Shown piece after piece: positions 3,133 to 64,000 of a stretch of DNA of 64,000 nucleotides. The DNA comes from Archangium primigenium (GTDB lineage: Bacteria; Myxococcota; Myxococcia; Myxococcales; Myxococcaceae), in contig NZ_JADWYI010000001.1 of NCBI RefSeq assembly GCF_016904885.1, forward strand, positions 9,295,224 through 9,359,223. Reading direction: 5' to 3'. The position numbers and the translations under genes are program-made. The notes under the pieces were generated by a model. The model had not been told where the DNA came from, searched no databases, and worked only from the letters and a program-made list of their open reading frames with translations. Position 1 is the stretch's first letter; each line of letters starts with the position of its first letter.

Positions 3133-4476
3133 GTGGAAACCCTCGTTCGCATCGCGGAGGCGCTCGGACGCTTCTCCGCGCGCTTCGTGCCCAGCTCGTT
3201 CGCCATCGCGGTGCTGCTGTCGCTCTTCACGCTCGGGCTCGCGGTGGGGTGGACGGACACCCCGGCCCCCGCCGTGCTGGACGCGTGGGGCGCGGGCTTC
3301 TGGGAGCTGCTCGGCTTCTCCATGCAGATGGCGCTGGTGATGTTCTCCGGCTACCTGCTCGCGCTCACCCGGCCGGTGCGCGCGCTGCTCGAGTGGCTGG
3401 CGGCGCGGGCCCAGGGCCCCCGGAGCGCGGTGGTGCTCATGGCGGCGGTGTCCATGGGCTTGGCGTACGTGAACTGGGGCCTGTCGCTCGTGGCCAGCGC
3501 CATGCTGGTGCGCTTCGTGGCGCGGCGGCGGCCGGACGTGGACTACCGGCTCCTGGTGGCGTGCGCCTACTTCGGGCTGGGGGCCACGTGGCACGCGGGC
3601 CTGTCCGCCTCGGCGCCGCTCCTGGTGGCCACCCCGGGCCACTTCCTGGAGAAGCAGCTGGGCGTCATCCCCATCGATCGCACCCTCTTCTCGCCCTTCA
3701 ACCTGACGCTCACGCTCGCGGTGGTGGGGGGCCTCACGCTGCTCGCCTGGGCCCTGCACCCGCGCCCCGAGCACACCGTGCGCGTGGACCCGGCGCTCCT
3801 GGAGCAGTTCCGCGACTTCGAGCCGCCCGCGCGCCCCGCGGAGAGGAGCCCCGCGCTGTGGCTGGACCATGCCCCGTGGCTCAACGTGGTGTTCGGGGGC
3901 TTGGGGCTCGTGTGGTTCGCGCGCCTGCTGTGGCTGCACGGCGGCTACCGGGCGCTCAACCTCAACGCGGTGAACTTCCTCTTCCTCACGCTGGCGGTGC
4001 TCCTGCACACCACCCCGGCGCGCCTGCTCAAGGCGAGCGAGGAGGCCGCGAGCGTGCTGCACGGCATCGTGCTGCAGTTCCCCCTGTACGCGGGCATCTA
4101 CGGCATCTTCAAGGCCACGGGCCTCACCGAGCGCATCGGCCAGCTCTTCGTGTCGCTGTCCACCGCCCAGACCTTCCCCGCCATCGTCTACCTCTACAGC
4201 GGCGTGGTGAACTACTTCGTGCCCTCGGGCGGCTCCAAGTGGGCCATCGAGGCGCCCTACCTCCTGGAGGCCGCGCGCACGCTCGGGGTCGCCCCGGAGA
4301 AGGTCGTGCTCGCGTACGCCTGGGGCGACATGGCCACCGACCTCATCCAGCCCTTCTGGGCCCTGCCGCTGCTCGCCGTGGCCCGTCTGGAATTCAAGGA
4401 CATCCTGGGATTCCTGCTGGTGGCCTTCCTCCTGTACCTGCCGCTGGTGACCCTCGCCTTCCTCGTGTGGGGCTGA
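3133..4476 (+). CDS. Short-chain fatty acid transporter, AtoE family
   Basis: 447 residues from GTG 3133, close to E. coli AtoE (about 440). A GGAG ribosome site ends 11 bp upstream. The sequence is membrane protein throughout, with many hydrophobic segments (for example SFAIAVLLSLFTLGLAVG, MALVMFSGYLLALTRP and FLLVAFLLYLPLVTLAFLVW). The family signature near residues 355-370 is present as NYFVPSGGSKWAIEAPYLLEA. AtoE proteins import acetoacetate/short-chain fatty acids across the inner membrane. The open frame extends upstream to 2938, but that part is low-quality coding and would add non-family residues. It stands alone, with divergent and unrelated neighbours. Confidence 0.9.
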   Translation: METLVRIAEALGRFSARFVPSSFAIAVLLSLFTLGLAVGWTDTPAPAVLDAWGAGFWELLGFSMQMALVMFSGYLLALTRPVRALLEWLAARAQGPRSAVVLMAAVSMGLAYVNWGLSLVASAMLVRFVARRRPDVDYRLLVACAYFGLGATWHAGLSASAPLLVATPGHFLEKQLGVIPIDRTLFSPFNLTLTLAVVGGLTLLAWALHPRPEHTVRVDPALLEQFRDFEPPARPAERSPALWLDHAPWLNVVFGGLGLVWFARLLWLHGGYRALNLNAVNFLFLTLAVLLHTTPARLLKASEEAASVLHGIVLQFPLYAGIYGIFKATGLTERIGQLFVSLSTAQTFPAIVYLYSGVVNYFVPSGGSKWAIEAPYLLEAARTLGVAPEKVVLAYAWGDMATDLIQPFWALPLLAVARLEFKDILGFLLVAFLLYLPLVTLAFLVWG

Positions 4477-4571
4477 GCGCCGGAGTGCCGGGAGCGAAGT
4501 GCCCCGCCGTCCGAGGGGTCTGTCTTGTGCTAGACAGCGCCGGCATACCCAAGACGAGGGGGCGGACGAAC

Positions 4572-5075
4572 ATGAAGAACGGTCTGACGAAGCTGATGCT
4601 GTGCGCGGCGATGGTGGTGGGCGGCAACGCGATGGCGCAGGAGGCGGAGGCCCCGGCCCACGAGCCCCAGAAGGTGCCGGACGCCGAGGGCATCAAGGAC
4701 ACCTGGAACTACTTCTACAAGGGCCAGGGCCAGGGCCCGGTGCTGGTGGACGCCAAGCTGTGCACGGAGGTGGGCAAGGAGGGCGCCAACAAGTTCGAGT
4801 GCACCATGGAGGTGCCCGCCGAGGGCATCAAGGCCAACACCCAGGTGATGGTGTGGCAGGCCTACCTCTTGCCCCAGGGGGACTCGGCCGAGGACGTGAT
4901 GATTCAGACGAAGCAGGGCAACGTCGTGCGCGAGACCAAGGACGTCAAGCTCAAGGGCGAGGGCTGGCGCACCCGGCAGTGGACGGGCGTGCGCCTGGGC
5001 AAGGCGGGCGAGTGGACGGTGAGCATCCTGCGCGGGGACAAGGTCCTCAAGACGTTCAACGTGAAGGTTCTCTAA
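4572..5075 (+). CDS. Small secreted protein, unknown function
   Basis: 167 residues starting MKNGLTKLMLCAAMVVGGNAMAQEAE, a clear Sec signal peptide with cleavage expected after AMA. The mature part is charged and beta-rich, has two cysteines (KLCTEV and FECTME) that could pair, and ends in an immunoglobulin-like pattern (GKAGEWTVSILRGDKVLKTFNVKVL). It resembles small periplasmic proteins found in myxobacteria, but I do not recognise a named family. Hairpins directly follow the stop, so it looks monocistronic. Confidence 0.8.
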   Translation: MKNGLTKLMLCAAMVVGGNAMAQEAEAPAHEPQKVPDAEGIKDTWNYFYKGQGQGPVLVDAKLCTEVGKEGANKFECTMEVPAEGIKANTQVMVWQAYLLPQGDSAEDVMIQTKQGNVVRETKDVKLKGEGWRTRQWTGVRLGKAGEWTVSILRGDKVLKTFNVKVL

Positions 5076-53007: not shown

Positions 53008-54108
53008 CTAGCGCGCGACGGCGTGGCTCAGGGCGCGGTGCACGGCCTCGAGCGCCTTGCGGGCCTCGAGCAGCTCGGCGCGCTCGGCGGTCAGCGAGGC
53101 GACCTGCTGGGCGAGCACGTCGCGCTCACCCTGGAGGGTGTCCACGGTGCGGCGCAGGGTGGCGGTCTCCTCCTGCACGATCTCCAGCTCCCCGGCGAGC
53201 CGCTCCTCCTCGGAGAGGCTGTCGGCGAGGGCCTTCTTGGCCTCGACCACGGCGCTCTCCAGGGTGGCGCGCTCCTCGGCGGCGGCCTGCATGGCCTGAC
53301 GCGCCTCCTGCAGGGACAGGAGGGCCTCGTCGCGCTCGCCCTCCAGCGAGGACAATTCGCGCTCCAGGTCGGCCAGGAGCTTCACCCGGCCCTCCACCTC
53401 GCTGGCCAGGCGCCGCGCCTCGTCCATGCGCAGGCGGGCCTCCTCGGTGGCCTTCTCCGACTGGCGCCGAGTGACTTCCAGGTCCTGGGTGAGCGAGAGG
53501 TTGAGGGCCTTGAAGCGGGTGAGCTCGGCCTGGAGGGTGGAGATGCGCTCCACGGCGCGCAGGCCCGCCTCGGCGACGCTGGCCGGCAGGGGCTCGGGGC
53601 GGGGGTTCTCGCGCACCGCCTTGAGGCGCTCCTTGAGGCGCTCGCGCCGGGCGTGCGTGTCCATCTCCTCGCGGGCCGGGACCGGGGCGGGCGGCGCGGG
53701 CGTCTGCACCTCCACCTCGTGCACGGGGGGCTCGGCGCGGGCCACGGGGGCGGCGGCCGGAGCGGCGGCCGGAACCGAGGCGACCGAGGCCACGGCCGAC
53801 ACGTCCGCGTCACGCGCCTGCTGCTCGGCGGAGGCGCGCAGGGCGGCGTCCAGCACCTCGGAGGCCGTGGGCCGCGGGGCGCGCGAGCGCTCGATGCGGG
53901 CGCGCACCTCGGCGGACAGGTCCTGGGCGGCCGTGCTCGGGGCGTCGTCCGCCTCGGGGAGGCGCGGCTCGGCGAGGGCCTCCGGCTCCCGGGCCGACTC
54001 GGCCTCCGAGGCCTCCTCGGACGCCGCGGGGTCCACGACACCGGTGAAGGCGCCCAGCCGCAGGCGCGGCTTGGCACGGGACACGTTCTGCTCGAAGGCC
54101 TTCTTCAT
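53008..54108 (-). CDS. pomX: PomX, scaffold of the Pom division-site system
   Basis: 366 residues. It begins MKKAFEQNVSRAKPRLRLGA, the conserved N-terminal peptide that stimulates the PomZ ATPase in Myxococcus xanthus; K13 and R15, the key basic residues there, are both present. An Ala/Pro-rich linker (about 90-165) is followed by a long coiled coil (about 180-360; LTRFKALNLSLTQDLEVTRRQSEKATEE). PomX polymers nucleate the PomXYZ cluster that marks mid-cell for FtsZ. It is shorter than the M. xanthus protein (about 400, from memory). It lies directly after pomZ on the same strand (36 bp). Confidence 0.93.
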   Translation of the reverse strand: MKKAFEQNVSRAKPRLRLGAFTGVVDPAASEEASEAESAREPEALAEPRLPEADDAPSTAAQDLSAEVRARIERSRAPRPTASEVLDAALRASAEQQARDADVSAVASVASVPAAAPAAAPVARAEPPVHEVEVQTPAPPAPVPAREEMDTHARRERLKERLKAVRENPRPEPLPASVAEAGLRAVERISTLQAELTRFKALNLSLTQDLEVTRRQSEKATEEARLRMDEARRLASEVEGRVKLLADLERELSSLEGERDEALLSLQEARQAMQAAAEERATLESAVVEAKKALADSLSEEERLAGELEIVQEETATLRRTVDTLQGERDVLAQQVASLTAERAELLEARKALEAVHRALSHAVAR

Positions 54109-54144
54109 TGGACGGACTTGATAGCGGAAGGGGTGTGGGGGTCG

Positions 54145-55104
54145 TCAACCGGCCTGCTTCGCATCCGTACCGCTACCGGGTGTCGCGCCCGCCCGCAAGC
54201 GCGGAAGCACATGCTGGATGAGGGCCTCGATGTCCGTGGCCCCCTTGGAGCCGGGGTCCGCCACGAAGATGGGGCGGCCCTCGCTGGCGGCCTGGGCGAA
54301 CTTCGTGCACTGCCGGATGATGGTGGGCAGCAGGAACTCCGGGTAGTGCGTCTGCAGCGCCTCCAGGGCCTCCTTGGCCAGCCGGAAGGTGGCGTTGAAG
54401 GAGTTGACCACGATGAACACGTGGTCCAGCACGTGGTTCAAGTCCTCGTCCAGGCCCTGCACCGTCTCGAAGAGCAGCTTGAGGCCGTGAAAGGACAGGA
54501 AGTCGGCCAACACGGGGACGAACAGGTCGTTGGCCGCCATGAGGGCGTTGAGGTTGAGCAGGCCGAAGGAGGGCGGCGCGTCGAAGACGATGACGTCGTA
54601 GCGGCCCTCCACTTCCTTGAGGGCGTTTCTCAGCTTGAACTCGCGCCCCGCCATGGGCATGAGCGCCAGGTCCACCGTGGACATGGTGAGGTTGGAGGGC
54701 ACGAAGTCCAGGTTGGGCAGGCTCGTCTTCTGGATGACCTCGGACAGGGGCGCCTTGCGCACCAGGACGTTGAGCAGCGTCTGGTCGAAGTCCTCGCCCT
54801 CGTAGCCCAGGCACTTGGTGGCGTGGCCCTGGCTGTCCAGGTCGATGATGAGCACCGAGTAGCCCAGCTCCGCCAGCCGCCACGCGTAGGACGTGGACAG
54901 GGACGTCTTGCCCGTGCCGCCCTTGAAGTTGAGGAAGAGCTGCTTTCTGCGGCCCATGGGCTCCGGGAAGCGCCCGTGCTGCTCGCGCAGCGCCCACACC
55001 TCGGCCCCCGTGTAGCTGTCCTGCTTGAGCGCCGGAGTGATGGACTTCAGCGGCAGGCCGAGCAGCTCGGCGACCTGCTTGGGACTGTACGTCGGCGCAT
55101 CCAT
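54145..55104 (-). CDS. pomZ: PomZ, ParA/MinD-type ATPase of division positioning
   Basis: 319 residues, the same length as M. xanthus PomZ as I recall it. The deviant Walker A is FKGGTGKTS with K66, the catalytic Asp is D90 (IIDLDSQGHATK), and switch II follows (VIVFDAPPSFG). These are exactly the residue numbers used for mutants of M. xanthus PomZ, formerly called AgmE. An N-terminal HTH-like segment (YSPKQVAELLGLPLKSITPALKQ) precedes. ATP-bound dimers bind the nucleoid and carry the PomXY cluster to mid-cell. It lies between pomY and pomX. Confidence 0.96.
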   Translation of the reverse strand: MDAPTYSPKQVAELLGLPLKSITPALKQDSYTGAEVWALREQHGRFPEPMGRRKQLFLNFKGGTGKTSLSTSYAWRLAELGYSVLIIDLDSQGHATKCLGYEGEDFDQTLLNVLVRKAPLSEVIQKTSLPNLDFVPSNLTMSTVDLALMPMAGREFKLRNALKEVEGRYDVIVFDAPPSFGLLNLNALMAANDLFVPVLADFLSFHGLKLLFETVQGLDEDLNHVLDHVFIVVNSFNATFRLAKEALEALQTHYPEFLLPTIIRQCTKFAQAASEGRPIFVADPGSKGATDIEALIQHVLPRLRAGATPGSGTDAKQAG

Positions 55105-55156
55105 GAGAACCCTTCAAGAACCCTTCGCCAACCTGGGACGGGGGTCATACCTTGCC

Positions 55157-56809
55157 TCAAGAGGCGAAGTATTTGTGACCTCTGCGCACGACCGAGCCCC
55201 TGGCCACCAACAGGGCGAGCGCCTCCTGGGCCAATTCGGGCGTGGACCGGATGCTGGTGGCCAGTTCTCCCAGGGACCGCCCCCGGATGGCCACGCGGAT
55301 TTCCGCCAACAGGGGAGCACACAACGCTTCCACGGGCGAGGGGGCGGCGCGCACGGTGGGACGGGGTGCGACCGCGGCGGCCGGGGTAGGCACGGGGGCG
55401 GCCTTGGGTGGGGCGACCGGAGCCGGTGCAGGTGCCGGGGCGAGCGCGACGGCGCGCGGGGGCGCCACCCGGGGCGTGAGCGTGGCCCGCACGGGGTGCA
55501 CGGGCAGCGTGGCGAGCCGGCGGATCTCCCGGCGGCGGCGGCCCTCGTCCAGCTCCACCACCGCGGACACGTCCTGGCCGAGGATGCGGCCCAGGCTCTG
55601 CGCGGCGGCGCGGCGCACGCGCACCTCGGAGTCCTTGAGGGCCTCGAGCAGCAGGGTGCGCGCGGACTCGCCGCTGCCCGCGCCGAGCGCCAGGGCGGCG
55701 AGGCTGCGCACCTCGACGTCCGGGTCGTGGATGGCCTCCTCGCCCAGGCGCCGCGAGTTCTCCCCCTCCAGGCCGAGCGCCAGGAGCGAGGCGCGCCGGC
55801 GCACGCCCCGGTCCGGGTCCTTCACCGCCTGGGCCAGGTGCGGCGCGGCCTCCTGGGGCGAGAGCGACAGCAGCGCCTTGAGCGCGGCGATGCGCACCTC
55901 GGGCACCCGCGAGGAGAGCAGCGGGGACACCACCGAGGCGCCCTGCTCCTTGCCCACCTCGGCGAAGGCCGCCAGGAGCGCCACCTGCACGCTGGGCGTG
56001 TCCTCGGCGTGCAGGGCGCTGGCCAGGGCGGGCGCGGCGGCCGGCTGGCCCAGGGCCTTGAGCCGCTCGGCGGCGCGCACGCGCGAGGTGGCGTCCGGCG
56101 CGGACAGCTCGCGCACGGAGAAGCCGAACAGCGACTCGTCCCCGGCGCCCGTGCCGGACAGCTCCGCGAGCTGCCCGGCGCTCACCGCGAGCCGCCCCTC
56201 CTGCTGCAGCCGCCACGCGTGCTGCACCACGGACGAGGCCGACGCCCCGGCCGCCGGCGCGCCCACCGTGGCCAGCGCGGGCACCGCCACGGGCACGGGG
56301 ACGGGCACCGGCACCGGCGCGGCGACCCCCTCGGCCGCCGCCGGAGCGCGCGCCGCCTCCACCGCCGAGGGCCAGGGGTACTTGGGCCCGGGCCCCGACT
56401 GTCCGGGCCGCTCGAGCACCTCGCTGCGCAGCTGGGAGATGAAGGACGCCAGGTCGATCCCCAGCCCGTCCTCGTCGTCTTCGTCCCGCTCGGGCCGCCC
56501 CGAGGCGCGGATGCGGCTGGCCTCCAGGAGCTTGCCGAGCAGCTGGCCGCGCTCGGTGCGCAAGGCCTGGTTGACGCGGGTGAGCTCCTCGCGCTCGGTG
56601 CCCACGCGGCCCATGCGCACCTCCATCTGCGCCAGCTCGCTGCGCAGCTCCAGCTCGCGCTGCTCGGACAGCGCCACCTCGCGCTTGAGGTGCTCCAGCT
56701 CCGCGCGCGTGGACGTCAGCTCGTGATGGAGCTGTTCCGCACGGGCCTCGAAATAGACAATCTTCTCGAGTGCGCTTCTGAGCAGCGCGTCCGGACGCTC
56801 GTCACTCAC
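55157..56809 (-). CDS. pomY: PomY, HEAT-repeat partner of the Pom system
   Basis: 550 residues from GTG 56809. N-terminal coiled coil (about 15-105; RAEQLHHELTSTRAELEHLKREV), a Pro/Val linker (about 160-190), HEAT repeats (about 225-405; VRAAERLKALG, VRIAALKALLSLSP, VRRRASLLALGLEG, VRSLAALALGAG, VRRAAAQSLGRIL), a second Pro/Ala-rich linker and a small C-terminal domain. This is the PomY architecture. PomY condenses on PomX and recruits FtsZ. It is shorter than the M. xanthus protein (about 680, from memory). It is first in the pomY-pomZ-pomX order. Confidence 0.93.
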   Translation of the reverse strand: MSDERPDALLRSALEKIVYFEARAEQLHHELTSTRAELEHLKREVALSEQRELELRSELAQMEVRMGRVGTEREELTRVNQALRTERGQLLGKLLEASRIRASGRPERDEDDEDGLGIDLASFISQLRSEVLERPGQSGPGPKYPWPSAVEAARAPAAAEGVAAPVPVPVPVPVAVPALATVGAPAAGASASSVVQHAWRLQQEGRLAVSAGQLAELSGTGAGDESLFGFSVRELSAPDATSRVRAAERLKALGQPAAAPALASALHAEDTPSVQVALLAAFAEVGKEQGASVVSPLLSSRVPEVRIAALKALLSLSPQEAAPHLAQAVKDPDRGVRRRASLLALGLEGENSRRLGEEAIHDPDVEVRSLAALALGAGSGESARTLLLEALKDSEVRVRRAAAQSLGRILGQDVSAVVELDEGRRRREIRRLATLPVHPVRATLTPRVAPPRAVALAPAPAPAPVAPPKAAPVPTPAAAVAPRPTVRAAPSPVEALCAPLLAEIRVAIRGRSLGELATSIRSTPELAQEALALLVARGSVVRRGHKYFAS

Positions 56810-59104: not shown

Positions 59105-59692
59105 ATGACGCAACCGAGCCGTTCCGCCTCCACCTACGTCCTCATCGATGCGGAGAACATCGATTGGGCCGTGTCCAACGTCGTGGGACGCAAGCCGGAG
59201 CCCCAGGATCGCGTGCAGTTCGATCGCCTGGTGGCGTTCTGCGAGTCGCGCTTCCCCACCCCCGCGCGCTGCATCGTGGTGCTCAACGCCCGGGGCGAGC
59301 AGCTGCCGGACGTGATGATCGGCTTCGTGCGCGCGCTCAAGACCGCGGGCTGCGAGGTCGTGCTGCTGCACGGCCGCCCCGAGCAGAAGGTGGTGGACAT
59401 CGGCATCCTGAAGTTGCTGGAGGCCATCCGCACCACCAAGCCGGGCGCCCACGTGGTGCTCGCCAGCCACGACGGCAGCGACTTCGCCGCCGCCCTGCGC
59501 CCGCTCCTGGACGAGAAGCGCAAGGTGACGCTGCTGGGTCTGCGCGAGTACGTGAGCCAGCGCTTCCGCGAGTTCGTGCCCGCGGGCCTGGAGATCCTCG
59601 ACCTGGAGATGGACGCCAAGGTCTTCCAGCGTCCCCTGCCCCGGCTGCTGCCCATCCGCGTGGACGACTTCGACGCGGCCGGCTTCCTCTAA
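59105..59692 (+). CDS. NYN-domain protein (LabA/Limkain-type PIN-like)
   Basis: 195 residues from ATG 59105; ATG 59093 is an alternative and neither has a good ribosome site. The PIN-like NYN fold is supported by the acidic set D20 (YVLIDAENIDWAV), ExxxD-like QKVVDIGILKLLEAI and SHDGSDFAAAL (D in the SxDxDF pattern). NYN proteins are predicted RNases. It ends 8 bp before the kinase-like gene, so the two probably form a transcript. Confidence 0.85.
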   Translation: MTQPSRSASTYVLIDAENIDWAVSNVVGRKPEPQDRVQFDRLVAFCESRFPTPARCIVVLNARGEQLPDVMIGFVRALKTAGCEVVLLHGRPEQKVVDIGILKLLEAIRTTKPGAHVVLASHDGSDFAAALRPLLDEKRKVTLLGLREYVSQRFREFVPAGLEILDLEMDAKVFQRPLPRLLPIRVDDFDAAGFL

Positions 59693-59700
59693 GAGGTCCC

Positions 59701-60414
59701 ATGGGCGACACGCCCCGGTGGAATGGAGGCAAGCTCGGCCCCTACCACGTGGGCCGCCGCTACCGGCGCGTGCCGCCTGACCTGGGCCGCGTCTACGAGG
59801 CCCACCACGTGGAGACGGGCGCCTCGGCGCTCGTGGTCGTGCCCGACAAGGACGAGTCGTGGGCCCCCACCCGGGACTGGCGGGTGAGCGCCCAGGGCTC
59901 GCACTCGCCCCCGTTCCTCGCCGCCGAGGTGGAGCGCGCCCCCGAGGCCAGCCCCGAGTCCGCCGCGGAATTGACGCTGCTGTTCCACCGGCTCGCGGGC
60001 GTGTTCGCCGCCTTCGAGGGCCGCCCGGACGCCCTGCACCACCTCACCGGCACCCTGCCCCGCGACGCGCGCCACCTCGCCCGCTGGCGCCCCCGCCTGC
60101 GCCGACTCGGCCACGCCGTCTGCGCCCTCGCGCTCGCGGTGCTCTTCTGGCCGGGCAGCGCCTCACACGAGCAACACCTCACCGCCGAGCGGCACTTCGC
60201 TCGGACACAGCTCGCCGACCCCCTGCCCTCCAAGCCCTATCCGGACCAGGCGAAGCCCCCCTGCAAGTCGGAGTGGGCCGAGGTGGAGATCCAGGGCGGC
60301 TGCTGGGTGGAGCTCTCCAGGCGCCCGCCTTGCGGCAAGACGACGGAGCACGCGGGCAAGTGTTACCTGCCCTCCAAGGCCGAGCCCCGGCCGCCCCAGT
60401 CCCTCACCCCGTGA
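59701..60414 (+). CDS. Pseudokinase-like membrane protein with Cys-rich tail
   Basis: 237 residues. The N-terminal 110 residues resemble a Ser/Thr kinase N-lobe in outline (LGPYHVGRRYRRVPPDLGRVYEAHHVETGASALVVVP) but lack the glycine loop and the lysine of VAVK, and the catalytic loop and DFG are absent. One membrane helix follows (HAVCALALAVLFWPGSA). The C-terminal 75 residues hold the pattern PCKSE ... GGCWVEL ... PPCGK ... GKCYLP, four cysteines typical of tails found on myxobacterial kinase-related proteins. It cannot be an active kinase; an adaptor role is possible. It follows the NYN gene by 8 bp. Confidence 0.72.
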   Translation: MGDTPRWNGGKLGPYHVGRRYRRVPPDLGRVYEAHHVETGASALVVVPDKDESWAPTRDWRVSAQGSHSPPFLAAEVERAPEASPESAAELTLLFHRLAGVFAAFEGRPDALHHLTGTLPRDARHLARWRPRLRRLGHAVCALALAVLFWPGSASHEQHLTAERHFARTQLADPLPSKPYPDQAKPPCKSEWAEVEIQGGCWVELSRRPPCGKTTEHAGKCYLPSKAEPRPPQSLTP

Positions 60415-60438: not shown

Positions 60439-60682
60439 ACCTCCGTGGTGAGATGACCTCTAAAGTCAGATTCACGGATCGCGCCGACTGCCAGCGGTGC
60501 CCCTCCGTGCCCCCCTGAGAACGGGGTGCCGTGCTCGTGCGCGGCGCCCACTCTCGGCGATGCCCTCCAAGGTGCCTGGCAGCCCTTGGGGGGCATTGTT
60601 TTTCGCCGAGTCACGCGCGCGGGGACTACTTCGGAAGTTTCCCGCTGACATATTACCTCCGAAGTCATATAACTCCGGAGGT
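60439..60682. promoter_or_regulatory. Array of five 11-bp operator-like repeats before the XRE gene
   Basis: Five related 11-mers of the pattern ACYTC-N-GARGT: ACCTCCGTGGT (60439), ACCTCTAAAGT (60456), ACTTCGGAAGT (60628, perfect inverted repeat), ACCTCCGAAGT (60655) and ACTCCGGAGGT (60672). Members one and two, and four and five, start exactly 17 bp apart. The last pair together forms a 28-bp palindrome with 24 of 28 positions symmetrical, 21 bp upstream of the XRE start. The gap 60467-60627 holds no gene. This looks like the binding region of the XRE protein. Confidence 0.7.
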
Positions 60683-60703
60683 TGGACCGGAGGTGGAAGC
60701 AGC

Positions 60704-61111
60704 ATGGTGCCGAAGAGGGTGGTGGCCCCCCGAGGGAAGCACGAGAGCAAGCAGAAGCTGGCCCGAGCGCTGGGCGACACGGCCCGGGGCGCGCGCAAGC
60801 GCGAGGCGCTGACCCAGGCCGACGTGGCCGAGCGCATTGGACTGGCGACCGAGGTGTATGGACGACTGGAGCGGGGCCTGCTCATGCCGAGCGTGCCCAC
60901 GCTGCGCCGGTTGTGCCTGGCGCTGCGGCTGCCGGCGGACGCGCTTCTGTCGCTCGACATGGCCCGTCCGCCCGCGTGGACGGAGGCCCCCGCGCCGCCC
61001 GAGGAGGAGGGCCCCGAGATGCGGCGGCTGATGCGGCATGTCCGCAAGCTCACTGCTGAACAACTCAAGGCCCTGGCCCTCGTGGCCGCCACCCTGCGGC
61101 GGGAGGAGTGA
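60704..61111 (+). CDS. XRE-family HTH transcription regulator
   Basis: 135 residues from ATG 60704 (GGAGG about ten bases upstream). The HTH spans about residues 28-80 (LGDTARGARKREALTQADVAERIGLATEVYGRLERGLLMPSVPTLRRLCLAL). A short helical C-terminus (about 95-135; EMRRLMRHVRKLTAEQLKALALVAATL) probably dimerises. It is the first gene of a three-gene cassette with an AraC-type regulator and a Ser/Thr kinase, and the repeat array upstream suggests strong autoregulation. Confidence 0.9.
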   Translation: MVPKRVVAPRGKHESKQKLARALGDTARGARKREALTQADVAERIGLATEVYGRLERGLLMPSVPTLRRLCLALRLPADALLSLDMARPPAWTEAPAPPEEEGPEMRRLMRHVRKLTAEQLKALALVAATLRREE

Positions 61112-61170: not shown

Positions 61171-62001
61171 ATGCTCCGGTCCGTGCGCCCCGCGGATGGA
61201 CTGGACGACTACCTTCAAGAGCCCTTCGGCCGGTATCTGGCCGGAGAGAACTTCATCCACTGGTACGCCTCACCCGAGCTGTGCGGCTTCACGGTCTGGG
61301 GTCGGCCCGGCGAGGCGCAGATCTCCCGGCTCACCTCGGTGCTGGACGTGGAGCTGGCCCCGGCCCAGCCGCACGTGTCGCTCGTGGATGCGCGGCGCAT
61401 CGAGGCGCCAGACCCCAGCGGGCTGTCCGTGCTGGTGAAGTACATGGCCCCGCGCATCTCCGGCTTCGCCCAGACGGTGCGCAAGCAGGCCCTGGTGCGC
61501 CCCGAGGGGCTGGCGGGCGCGGTGGTGGGCGGCTTCTACAGCCTGGTGAGTTCCAGCTATCCCACCCGTGCCTTCGCCGACCCCCTGGAGGGCCTGAGCT
61601 GGCTGGGCCGCACCGAGACCGAGGCGCGCGGGCTGCTCTCGGAGCTGGACGCGCTGGTGCTCCAGCAACAGGGCCAGTCGCCGCTCATCGGCGAGCTGCA
61701 CCGGGTGATGCGCCCCAAGCTGTGCGAGGAGCTCAACCTGGCGGACGTGGCGCGGGAGATGGGCATGTCCGAGCGCACGCTCCAGCGCCGCCTGCGCGAC
61801 ACGGGCACGTCCTTCCAGGCCGAGTTCAACATGGTGCAGGTGCGCACCGCCCAGTCCCTGCTGCTGGCGAGCGACGCCAAGCTCACGGCGGTGGCCGCCG
61901 AGGTGGGCTGCGCCTCGCTGCAACACTTCAGCAGCCTGTTTCGCAAGTACACCGGCGAGTCCCCCAGCGTCTGGCGCGCCAAGAACAAGCCCGGGGCCTG
62001 A
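61171..62001 (+). CDS. AraC-family transcription regulator
   Basis: 276 residues from ATG 61171 (GGGAGG just upstream); GTG 61108 would add 21 residues across a hairpin. The C-terminal 100 residues are the double HTH of AraC (CEELNLADVAREMGMSERTLQRRLRDTGTSFQAEFN ... VAAEVGCASLQHFSSLFRKYTGESPSVWR). The N-terminal domain (about 1-165) is not the usual cupin and gives no ligand clue. It lies 60 bp after the XRE gene and 5 bp before the kinase gene. Confidence 0.9.
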   Translation: MLRSVRPADGLDDYLQEPFGRYLAGENFIHWYASPELCGFTVWGRPGEAQISRLTSVLDVELAPAQPHVSLVDARRIEAPDPSGLSVLVKYMAPRISGFAQTVRKQALVRPEGLAGAVVGGFYSLVSSSYPTRAFADPLEGLSWLGRTETEARGLLSELDALVLQQQGQSPLIGELHRVMRPKLCEELNLADVAREMGMSERTLQRRLRDTGTSFQAEFNMVQVRTAQSLLLASDAKLTAVAAEVGCASLQHFSSLFRKYTGESPSVWRAKNKPGA

Positions 62002-62006
62002 GCGCG

Positions 62007-64000
62007 GTGGACGGGACGCATGACTCGGGACCACCGGGCGCCCCCACGGTCGATCCCCACTCGCCCCCCCGTACGTCTTCCTCCTCCGCCACGCCGGTGT
62101 TTCCCGTGCCGGGCTGGGAGCGCTACCAGGGCCTGCGCCTGCTGGGCCAGGGTGGCATGGGCCAGGTGTTCCTCGCCTACGATCCGCGCCTGCGCCGGCA
62201 CGTGGCCATCAAGTTCGTCAAGGGCGAGGACGGCGACCTGTCGCGCCGCTTCCTGTCCGAGGCGCGCGCCCAGGCCCGCGTCGCCCACGAGAGCGTCTGC
62301 CAGGTGCACGAGGTGGCCGAGGTGGACGGCCGCCCCTACATCGCCATGCAGTTCATCGACGGCGTGCCGCTCGGGCAGCTCGTGGGCCAGCTCACCGTGG
62401 AGCAGACGGTCCAGGTGATGCGCGACGCCTGCCGGGGCGTGCACGCCGCCCACCGCGCCGGGCTCATCCACCGCGACCTCAAGCCGGGCAACATCCTGGT
62501 CGAGCGCACCGAGGACGGCCGGCTCAAGGCCTACGTCATGGACTTCGGCCTGGCCCATGACGGCACGGCCACCGGCGCCACCGCCACCGGCTCCGTGCTG
62601 GGCACGCCGCAGTACATGTCCCCCGAGCAGGCCCGGGGCGAGGTGGGCCGCCTGGATCGCCGCGCGGACGTCTACAGCCTGGGCGCCACGCTCTACCAAC
62701 TGCTCACCGGCCACGTCCCCATCTCCGGCGACAACGGGCTGGAGGTGCTCAGCCGCATCCCCACCGTGGAGCCCCGCCCGCCCCGCGCGCTCGCGCCCGG
62801 CCTGCCCGAGGACCTGGAGGCCATCGTCCTCACGTGCCTGGAGAAGGACCGCGCGGCCCGGTACGACTCGGCCCACGCGCTCGCCGAGGACCTGGAGCGC
62901 TTCCTCGTGGGCGAGCCCGTCCGTGCGCGCGCCCCTGGCTGGGCCTACCGGCTGCGCAAGCACGTGCGCCGGCACCGGGTGGCCGTGGGCGCGGCGGCGG
63001 TGGCGCTCGTGGCGGTGACGGGCGCCCTGGGCTGGACCGCGGTGGCTCGCCAGCGCGCCGCCGCGCGCGAGCGGCTCATCCGCCACTTCACCGAGCGCGT
63101 GGAGCACATCGAGGCCCAGGCCCGTTACTCCGCCCTGTCGCGCCTGCACGACGTGCGCGCCGATCGCGCCGAGCTGCGCCGCGCCATGGCCTCGCTGGAG
63201 GAGGAGATCCACCGGGCGGACGACACCGTCCAGGCCGCGGGCCACTACGCGCTCGGACGCGGCGCGCTGGCGCTCGGCGACCCGCACCAGGCCCGCGAGC
63301 GACTGGAGCGCGCGTGGGCCCAGGGCTTCCACGAACCGCGCGTCGCCTGGACCCTGGCCCTGGTGCTCGGGGGGCTCTACCGCGAACAGCTCCTGGAGGC
63401 GGAGAACCTCCCCTCGCCCGAGCGGCGCGAGTCGGCCCGGCGCGCGCTCCAGGAGCGCTACCGCGCGCCCGCCCTGGAGTGGTCACGGCGCGGCGCGGGC
63501 GCCGAGGTGCCCTCGGCCGGGTACATGGCGGCGCTGTTGGACTTCCACGAGGAGCGGCTCGACGAGGCCCTGCGCCGGCTCGACGCGGAGGGCCCCGGAC
63601 GCCCCTGGTTCCACGAGGGGCTCCAGCTCCGGGGCGATCTGCTCATGCTCCGGGCCCGGCACCGCTGGAACCGGGGCGACACGGACGGGGCCCGCGCGGA
63701 CCTCACGGCCGGCCGGGAGGCCCTGCGCGCCGCCGCCGCCACCGCCGAGAGCCTGCCTGCGGTGCACGAGTCCCTGGCGCGGCTCGAGTACACCGAGCTG
63801 GTCCTGGAGCTCTACAGCCGGGGCGACATCCTCCCCGCCTATACGCGCGGCCTGGAGGCCGTGGCGCGCATGGCCGCGGTGGCGCCGGACTCGCCCGAGG
63901 CGCGCTTTCGCGAGGCGCGCTTCCACAACCGGCTGGCGGAGTTCCGGCTCAACCAGGGCGCCGACGCGGAGGCCCCGCTCGACCAGGCCCTCACCGCCGC
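62007..64000 (+). CDS. Ser/Thr protein kinase with TM and TPR-like region, truncated by window end
   Basis: 664 residues are visible from GTG 62007 (six bases after the AraC stop); no stop before the edge. The kinase domain (about residues 38-300) has GQGGMGQVF, VAIKFV, HRDLKPGNILV, DFG and SPEQ motifs. A membrane helix follows (VAVGAAAVALVAVTGALGWTAVA, about 330-350), then a TPR-like helical sensor region (ALGRGALALGDPHQARERLERAWAQG and further). The kinase lies in the cytoplasm and the repeats outside. Co-transcription with the AraC gene suggests a linked signalling unit. Confidence 0.92.
   Translation, partial: MDGTHDSGPPGAPTVDPHSPPRTSSSSATPVFPVPGWERYQGLRLLGQGGMGQVFLAYDPRLRRHVAIKFVKGEDGDLSRRFLSEARAQARVAHESVCQVHEVAEVDGRPYIAMQFIDGVPLGQLVGQLTVEQTVQVMRDACRGVHAAHRAGLIHRDLKPGNILVERTEDGRLKAYVMDFGLAHDGTATGATATGSVLGTPQYMSPEQARGEVGRLDRRADVYSLGATLYQLLTGHVPISGDNGLEVLSRIPTVEPRPPRALAPGLPEDLEAIVLTCLEKDRAARYDSAHALAEDLERFLVGEPVRARAPGWAYRLRKHVRRHRVAVGAAAVALVAVTGALGWTAVARQRAAARERLIRHFTERVEHIEAQARYSALSRLHDVRADRAELRRAMASLEEEIHRADDTVQAAGHYALGRGALALGDPHQARERLERAWAQGFHEPRVAWTLALVLGGLYREQLLEAENLPSPERRESARRALQERYRAPALEWSRRGAGAEVPSAGYMAALLDFHEERLDEALRRLDAEGPGRPWFHEGLQLRGDLLMLRARHRWNRGDTDGARADLTAGREALRAAAATAESLPAVHESLARLEYTELVLELYSRGDILPAYTRGLEAVARMAAVAPDSPEARFREARFHNRLAEFRLNQGADAEAPLDQALTA

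Follow-up and report, generated by a model that had tools for sequence, protein, structure and literature searches.

Conserved dyads at the putative promoter of an XRE regulator gene beside pomXYZ-like genes in Archangium primigenium, and recurrence of the dyad upstream of dnaE2

What do five related 11-mers upstream of a small XRE regulator gene do? They lie in a 64,000-nucleotide stretch of the Archangium primigenium genome (the window), where the original prediction read them as a five-site operator array feeding a cassette of XRE, AraC, and Ser/Thr kinase genes, comparable with the controller (C) proteins of restriction-modification systems. From sequence comparisons, we consider it likely that a dimer of the XRE protein binds RACYYNNNRRGTY dyads to control the promoter of its own gene, by negative autoregulation, with dnaE2 as a predicted target.

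Dyads around the putative promoter of the XRE gene

All five 11-mers are present at the predicted positions, with both pairs at 17-bp spacing (Table 1); from sites 1 to 5, the start-to-start distances are 17, 172, 27, and 17 bp. Two further details of the prediction held: the last pair forms a palindrome ahead of the XRE gene (sites 4 and 5 make a 28-mer in which 24 of 28 positions agree with its own reverse complement), and one member, site 3, is a perfect inverted repeat around its central base. The motif itself had to be replaced. The predicted form, ACYTC-N-GARGT, is perfect only at sites 3 and 4 and one base off at sites 1, 2, and 5, and relatives keep just an AC followed by two pyrimidines, then three free bases, and two purines ahead of GT. 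We therefore use the motif that the relatives back, RACYYNNNRRGTY, with the core ACYYNNNRRGT and dyads of the form RACYY-N3-RRGTY; sites 2 to 5 fit this core perfectly and site 1 with one mismatch. The window contains nine perfect matches to the core, four of them inside 227 bp at the array. From the density outside the array, 0.019 matches are expected per 244 bp, and the Poisson probability of four or more is 5.5e-9, an optimistic figure since the motif was tuned on the array sites and their relatives.

Sites 3 to 5 are placed around the -35 and -10 hexamers of a promoter of sigma70-like form, CTGACA-N17-TATAAC, from which transcription would start near 60680. The XRE open reading frame opens with an ATG at 60704, and GGAGG is found at 60689-60693.

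Table 1. Coordinates of the dyads, promoter elements, and genes in the window
Feature	Position	Strand	Remarks
pomX-, pomZ- (ParA-type), and pomY-like (HEAT repeat) genes	53008-56809	-	Define the identity of the locus
Site 1, ACCTCCGTGGT	60439-60449	.	ACYYNNNRRGT with one mismatch; only in the window genome
Site 2, ACCTCTAAAGT	60456-60466	.	Perfect dyad, 17 bp from site 1; only in the window genome
Site 3, ACTTCGGAAGT	60628-60638	.	Perfect dyad just upstream of -35; kept in 6/6 relatives and 2/2 held-out relatives
-35-like hexamer, CTGACA	60645-60650	+	Putative promoter element (consensus and conservation); GCTGACA in 7/7 loci
Site 4, ACCTCCGAAGT	60655-60665	.	Perfect dyad within the 17-bp promoter spacer; kept in 6/6 relatives and 2/2 held-out relatives
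-10-like hexamer, TATAAC	60668-60673	+	Putative promoter element (consensus and conservation)
Site 5, ACTCCGGAGGT	60672-60682	.	Perfect dyad covering the -10 end and the putative start; perfect in 6/6 relatives
XRE (HTH_3) regulator gene, 135 aa	60704-61111	+	At the position of M. xanthus ddiA, pomXYZ locus
AraC-family regulator gene	61171-62001	+	Starts 59 nt past the XRE stop; a neighbor in relatives
Ser/Thr kinase gene	62007-64000, runs off the window	+	GTG 5 nt past the AraC stop; absent from this position in relatives

The XRE protein has relatives of 66 to 78% identity in six other genomes, and we compared 700 bp upstream of their genes (loci L053 to L058) with the window locus (L052), leaving out L079 as an independent relative because it is the same record as L058. 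The GCTGACA-N17-TATAAC block and sites 3 to 5 lie at identical offsets in all seven loci. Conservation in relatives, which the original prediction expected of a true array, thus extends to sites 3 to 5 with their 27/17-bp spacing, where 21/21 dyads fit ACYYNNNRRGT. Beyond these, the six relatives have no further perfect match in their 700-bp upstream regions, and no counterpart of sites 1 and 2. An operator array of conserved, dimer-type sites 3 to 5 therefore stands; the five-site design does not, since sites 1 and 2 occur only here. Across the seven loci, none of the 12 AC/GT core columns varies, 8 of the 12 arm columns vary without a transversion, and 8 of the 9 center columns vary, 7 of them with transversions. 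Such behavior is expected of a dyad, though the comparison is partly circular, as the motif was derived from the same sites. Two relatives found later, Archangium lansinium (L078) and A. violaceum (L083), served as held-out loci. Both keep sites 3 and 4, and two of the three dyads are perfect in each; site 5 has a 2-nt center in A. lansinium and is not recognizable in A. violaceum, where the spacing from site 3 to site 4 is 26. We count the loss or alteration of site 5 in both against our reading.

The original prediction also proposed a genome scan at 17-bp spacing. In the window genome, a double dyad at this spacing has a single perfect match, sites 4 and 5, and seven one-mismatch matches, including sites 1 and 2 and dnaE2. 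These last two lie outside mechanically called open reading frames, and the other five one-mismatch tandems are all inside them (5/5). The total of 8 equals the 8 matches of a reversed-pattern control (at most one mismatch), so the array is marked by place and perfection only, not by number. Tandem and reversed-control counts, at the same threshold, were 14 and 18 in G001, 14 and 9 in G002, 12 and 11 in G003, 15 and 14 in G010, 10 and 11 in G030, 7 and 20 in G060, and 4 and 4 in G059. Over these eight genomes the counts are overall no higher than the controls, and we rejected a genome-wide regulon defined by the 17-bp tandem. Among the matches listed, the pom-locus tandem is also perfect in 5/6 Archangium/Cystobacter-type genomes, and a second tandem recurs, perfect in G001, G002, G010, G030, and G060 and with one mismatch in G003; it is probably coding, since one frame reads SLGVLTYE.

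Could the repeats be due to chance, or be functionless? The equality of tandem and control counts and the lack of conservation of sites 1 and 2 would fit. However, sites 3 to 5 are conserved around a variable center, and the dyad is enriched before paralogs and recurs at dnaE2, as described below, so we give a chance origin almost no credence.

We infer binding, its dimer mode, and the sign of regulation from the placement and conservation of the sites around the promoter-like hexamers. The XRE protein would bind the RACYYNNNRRGTY dyads of its own promoter as a dimer. Because site 4 lies within the spacer and site 5 covers the -10 end and the putative start, the two, once occupied, would shut out RNA polymerase and produce negative autoregulation. 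Site 3 may strengthen binding, make it cooperative, or activate the promoter when occupancy is low, and sites 1 and 2 may be a lineage-specific auxiliary pair. Simple dimers bound side by side are not implied, since neither 17 nor 27 bp is a whole number of helical turns.

The XRE protein, its paralogs, and known systems

Pfam found only a helix-turn-helix (HTH) in the XRE protein, an HTH_3 domain above the curated cutoff (E 1.4e-9). Its structural model matches XRE structures and has C-terminal helices beyond the HTH. The HTH domain is closest to the controller proteins C.BclI (Z 10.7) and C.AhdI (Z 10.6), but others score equally well (ClgR, an M. smegmatis XRE protein, P22 c2, and ImmR; Z 10.2 to 10.5), so the likeness to controller proteins is one of general fold only. 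The C proteins of type II restriction-modification systems share with the window system this fold, tandem dyads at their own promoter, and GAC...GTC-like half-sites (PMC3758141, PMC4824078). The C-box is GACT-N3-AGTC (PMC4824078), and other C-box classes exist. In contrast, the window dyads, where both ends fit, read GACT-N5-AGTC, with half-sites two bases further apart, and the window protein is longer, at 135 aa with its C-terminal helices. In agreement with the original prediction, no restriction or methylase gene was recognized among the neighbors tested (HEAT, ParA, NYN, AraC, kinase, and two genes that Pfam did not match). The comparison with C proteins thus survives for the HTH fold and fails for half-site spacing, protein length, and neighbors. 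We rejected membership among the controller proteins on neighbors and half-site spacing, and kept it as a rival mode of action. The promoter would then be a concentration switch, with site 3 filled first and activating, sites 4 and 5 filled later and repressing, and a cooperative tetramer on sites 4 and 5. The position of site 3 just upstream of the -35, where an activator would sit, the 24/28 palindrome of sites 4 and 5, and the closest fold matches would all suit such a switch. We nevertheless find it improbable, given the tied folds, the dyad spacer and protein length unlike those of C proteins, and the lack of recognized restriction genes; moreover, with hexamers this close to consensus, the promoter has no obvious need of activation.

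Autoregulated XRE regulators such as DdrO and ImmR provide a more general comparison. They have a dimer-type palindrome upstream of their own gene, and the study that describes such regulators comprises 223 clusters (PMC12565409). The window system likewise combines an XRE-type HTH with conserved palindromes in its own promoter; it differs in having multi-site arrays of fixed spacing, common to a paralog family. The site of the Escherichia coli antitoxin and autoregulator MqsA, AACCT-N3-AGGTT (PMC4894380), is a special case of RACYYNNNRRGTY. It is compatible with the pattern of the dyads, and no site here has exactly those letters. Unlike MqsA, the window protein has no toxin partner recognized by Pfam, NCBIfam, or PADLOC in the neighbors tested, and it matches the MqsA structure only weakly in sequence (E 0.73).

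The XRE protein belongs to a large family. The window genome has 20 matches to it, itself included, 17 of them with E < 1e-9, and the recognition-helix region is near-invariant across 21 diverse family members. The dyad recurs before these genes: 50 family upstream regions hold 49 perfect dyads against 3.19 expected, 25 at the seven pom-locus loci and 24 at the 43 other regions, and 79 family upstream regions from named genomes (L099 was dropped because its upstream was too short) hold 127 dyads against 5.62 expected from shuffles, with at least one dyad in 58/79. Neither count is of independent events, because genomes are shared and include close relatives, and some of the matches fall in coding N-termini (L055, L056, L057, and one in L083). 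As a control, 484 other genes of such loci have 61 dyads upstream, or 0.126 per 300 bp; single dyads are thus frequent, which counts against our preferred explanation. Other subfamilies have array spacings of their own, 28/27 and 23/28 (compared with 27/17 at the pom locus), and a layout in which a dyad is directly followed by CATAT recurs in one other subfamily. An 'Xre' class reported in Myxococcaceae is one per genome and counted among response regulators (PMC7694542), and that count has no bearing on the DdiA-like family discussed here.

The motif is open to about 20 paralogs and so does not identify its binder; the dyads might be operators of one or several paralogous XRE proteins, instead of or besides the product of the adjacent gene, in a cross-regulated network. 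The number of paralogs, their near-invariant recognition helix, and the same dyad before many of them are all compatible with such a network. Against it, array number and spacing vary by subfamily, and the 17-bp tandem is particular to the pom locus and dnaE2 among the promoters seen, which suggests some specificity. We regard the network as unlikely and attribute the pom-locus dyads tentatively to the product of the adjacent XRE gene.

DdiA and dnaE2

The pom locus gives the window gene a studied counterpart. In Myxococcus xanthus, ddiA adjoins pomXYZ and is damage-induced, and its product DdiA (MXAN_0633) activates dnaE2, the gene of an error-prone DNA-repair polymerase, directly or indirectly, and is reported not to be an autoregulator (PMC12288472). 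In M. xanthus AM003 (L170) and Myxococcus sp. RHSTA-1-4 (L093), homologs of the pom genes adjoin an XRE gene of DdiA type, so the window XRE gene is a positional counterpart of ddiA. By place and length, the M. xanthus AM003 protein at the pom locus (119 aa, as the published coordinates imply) would be DdiA. In the window, the corresponding genes encode a coiled-coil, a ParA-type, and a HEAT-repeat protein; we provisionally take them to be pomX, pomZ, and pomY, in view of the published adjacency of ddiA and pomXYZ. The window protein and DdiA are about 53 to 57% identical and share family membership and, in the models, an XRE HTH with two C-terminal helices. Their relation is poorly resolved in a quick tree of few columns, and an AU test against one clade with DdiA (p-AU 0.0245, quick tree of 75 rows) speaks mildly against strict orthology, so that the pom-locus gene may have been replaced by a paralog.

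The promoters of the two genes differ. Unlike the window gene, ddiA has no dyad in its proximal promoter, which carries a TGTCAGAC-N8-TAATCT block instead. In 18 ddiA-type promoters of Myxococcus/Corallococcus type (L093, L095-L098, L101-L104, L106-L111, L114, L116, and L131), no dyad occurs within 230 bp (0/18), in keeping with the published lack of autoregulation; five of these loci have one dyad further out, about 311 to 322 bp ahead of the match start and well away from the conserved block. The block, in the form TGTCAGAC-N8-TA...T (TGTCAG-N10-TA...T), is present in 18/18, about 120 bp before the start codon, and in none of eight pom-locus XRE genes of the Archangium/Cystobacter clade (400 bp upstream). 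It resembles the actinobacterial PafBC/RecA-NDp promoter and might account for the induction of ddiA by damage. M. xanthus has PafBC homologs, and in strain AM003 TAATCT lies 13 to 8 bases before the published ddiA transcription start, the -10 position (PMC12288472). Might a different regulator of the damage response, LexA or a PafBC-like WYL protein, control the window promoter instead, with the dyads incidental? The damage induction of the ddiA counterpart (PMC12288472) and the 18/18 block are in its favor, but the block is missing upstream of all eight clade pom-locus XRE genes, which keep the dyads, and we judge such control very improbable. Autoregulation through the dyads is still our preferred reading for the window gene, even though, by analogy, the non-autoregulation of DdiA, its closest functionally studied counterpart, argues against it.

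Does the dyad also mark a target? Upstream of dnaE2, a perfect dyad is found in 25/30 genomes at lineage-fixed positions: 94 bp before the dnaE2 YAEL codon in 7/10 genomes of Archangium/Cystobacter/Hyalangium type, and 81 to 82 bp before it in 18/20 genomes of Myxococcus/Corallococcus/Pyxidicoccus/Citreicoccus type. In the Archangium/Cystobacter type, an imperfect second dyad lies 17 bp downstream of the first in 7/7 genomes searched, which places dnaE2 among the one-mismatch tandem matches in those seven. Against our reading, a perfect dyad is lacking at 5/30 dnaE2 promoters: L225 and L229 miss it by one mismatch each, and the others are L235 (Hyalangium), L236 (A. violaceum), and L237 (SZUA-606). 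As a control, dnaE1 has no dyad in the 300 bp upstream of mechanically called starts (0/8). We rejected recX, the other DdiA-dependent gene tested, as a target, because its dyad is not conserved; 1/16 recX-family loci from eight genomes, that of A. lansinium (L180), has one a short way ahead of the called start.

The dnaE2 dyad, part of a 17-bp-spaced pair in the clade of the window, is a predicted binding place, and the shared tandem suggests that dnaE2 may be a target of the window XRE protein there. In Myxococcus, at least one XRE family member controls dnaE2. CTGAACGGCTGCTCAG, or a variant, lies downstream of the dnaE2 dyad and by eye resembles an SOS box (L207-L214 and L220-L242); the position of the dyad upstream of this LexA-box-like sequence would suit activation. 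The M. xanthus SOS box is CTRHAMRYBYGTTCAGS, with full matches only at recA2 and lexA (PMC9705874). As a separate observation, the LexA-box-like CTGAACGGCTGCTCAG suggests joint control of dnaE2 by LexA and an XRE protein.

It is tempting to generalize. RACYYNNNRRGTY may be the operator code of the whole family of about 20 paralogs per genome, with the pom promoter rewired by lineage and dnaE2, and with it the mutation rate, under direct control; we rate the chances of this broader scheme as about even. Myxococcus and Corallococcus would have a damage-type pom-locus promoter free of dyads, Archangium and Cystobacter a three-dyad autoregulatory one, and both a site at dnaE2. A dyad at dnaE2 in both lineages and none at proximal ddiA promoters agrees with both published results on DdiA. 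The 2025 DdiA paper left open whether DdiA acts directly on dnaE2, and its available text has no mention of a palindrome or binding site (PMC12288472); in the available text of PMC12565409, DdiA appears only in the introduction and references. We found no DdiA binding site in the literature searched, and the dnaE2 dyad offers a base-resolved candidate for this open question. If the scheme is true, a regulator directly sets dnaE2 and, through it, the mutation rate; a large, almost unstudied family of myxobacterial regulators gains a ready operator code; and promoter rewiring at one locus becomes testable with a few reporters. The pom-locus position shared with ddiA and the recurrence of the dyad before paralogs and dnaE2 had not been seen in the original prediction.

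Neighboring genes

The predicted cassette holds for the AraC gene and not for the kinase. AraC follows the XRE gene in 7/7 loci (L052 to L058) and is also found about 1 kb away in L078, L083, and L093; the Corallococcus locus L171 has no AraC match, and the M. xanthus contig ends before the AraC position could be read. A kinase directly after AraC is found only in the window among L052 to L058. In L053 to L057 the best kinase matches are kilobases off at 37 to 39% identity, and L058 has no kinase match at the locus. With no close kinase after AraC in six relatives, we ruled out the kinase as a cassette member. A PLDc-domain gene is nearby in 6/6 of L053 to L058.

The kinase domain matches the PADLOC PD-T4-6 kinase models (E 1.1e-77), which implies no defense function, as many Ser/Thr kinases would match. 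Between the NYN and XRE genes of the window is an open reading frame of 241 aa (59689-60414) without a Pfam match, with sites 1 and 2 just past it; in L055 to L057, the NYN gene is directly upstream of the XRE gene. Elsewhere, catalytic motifs of Ser/Thr kinases occur no more than about 1 kb from XRE paralogs in L042 (17789-18716) and in L128, L140, and L157 (around 4335-5001), on opposite strands in the latter three, an arrangement that is recurrent, not general. Finally, three records titled Comamonas sp. KCTC 72670 (L090, L111, and L145) carry XRE family genes of myxobacterial kind, which the tree places among Myxococcus sequences, and this genome is probably misnamed.
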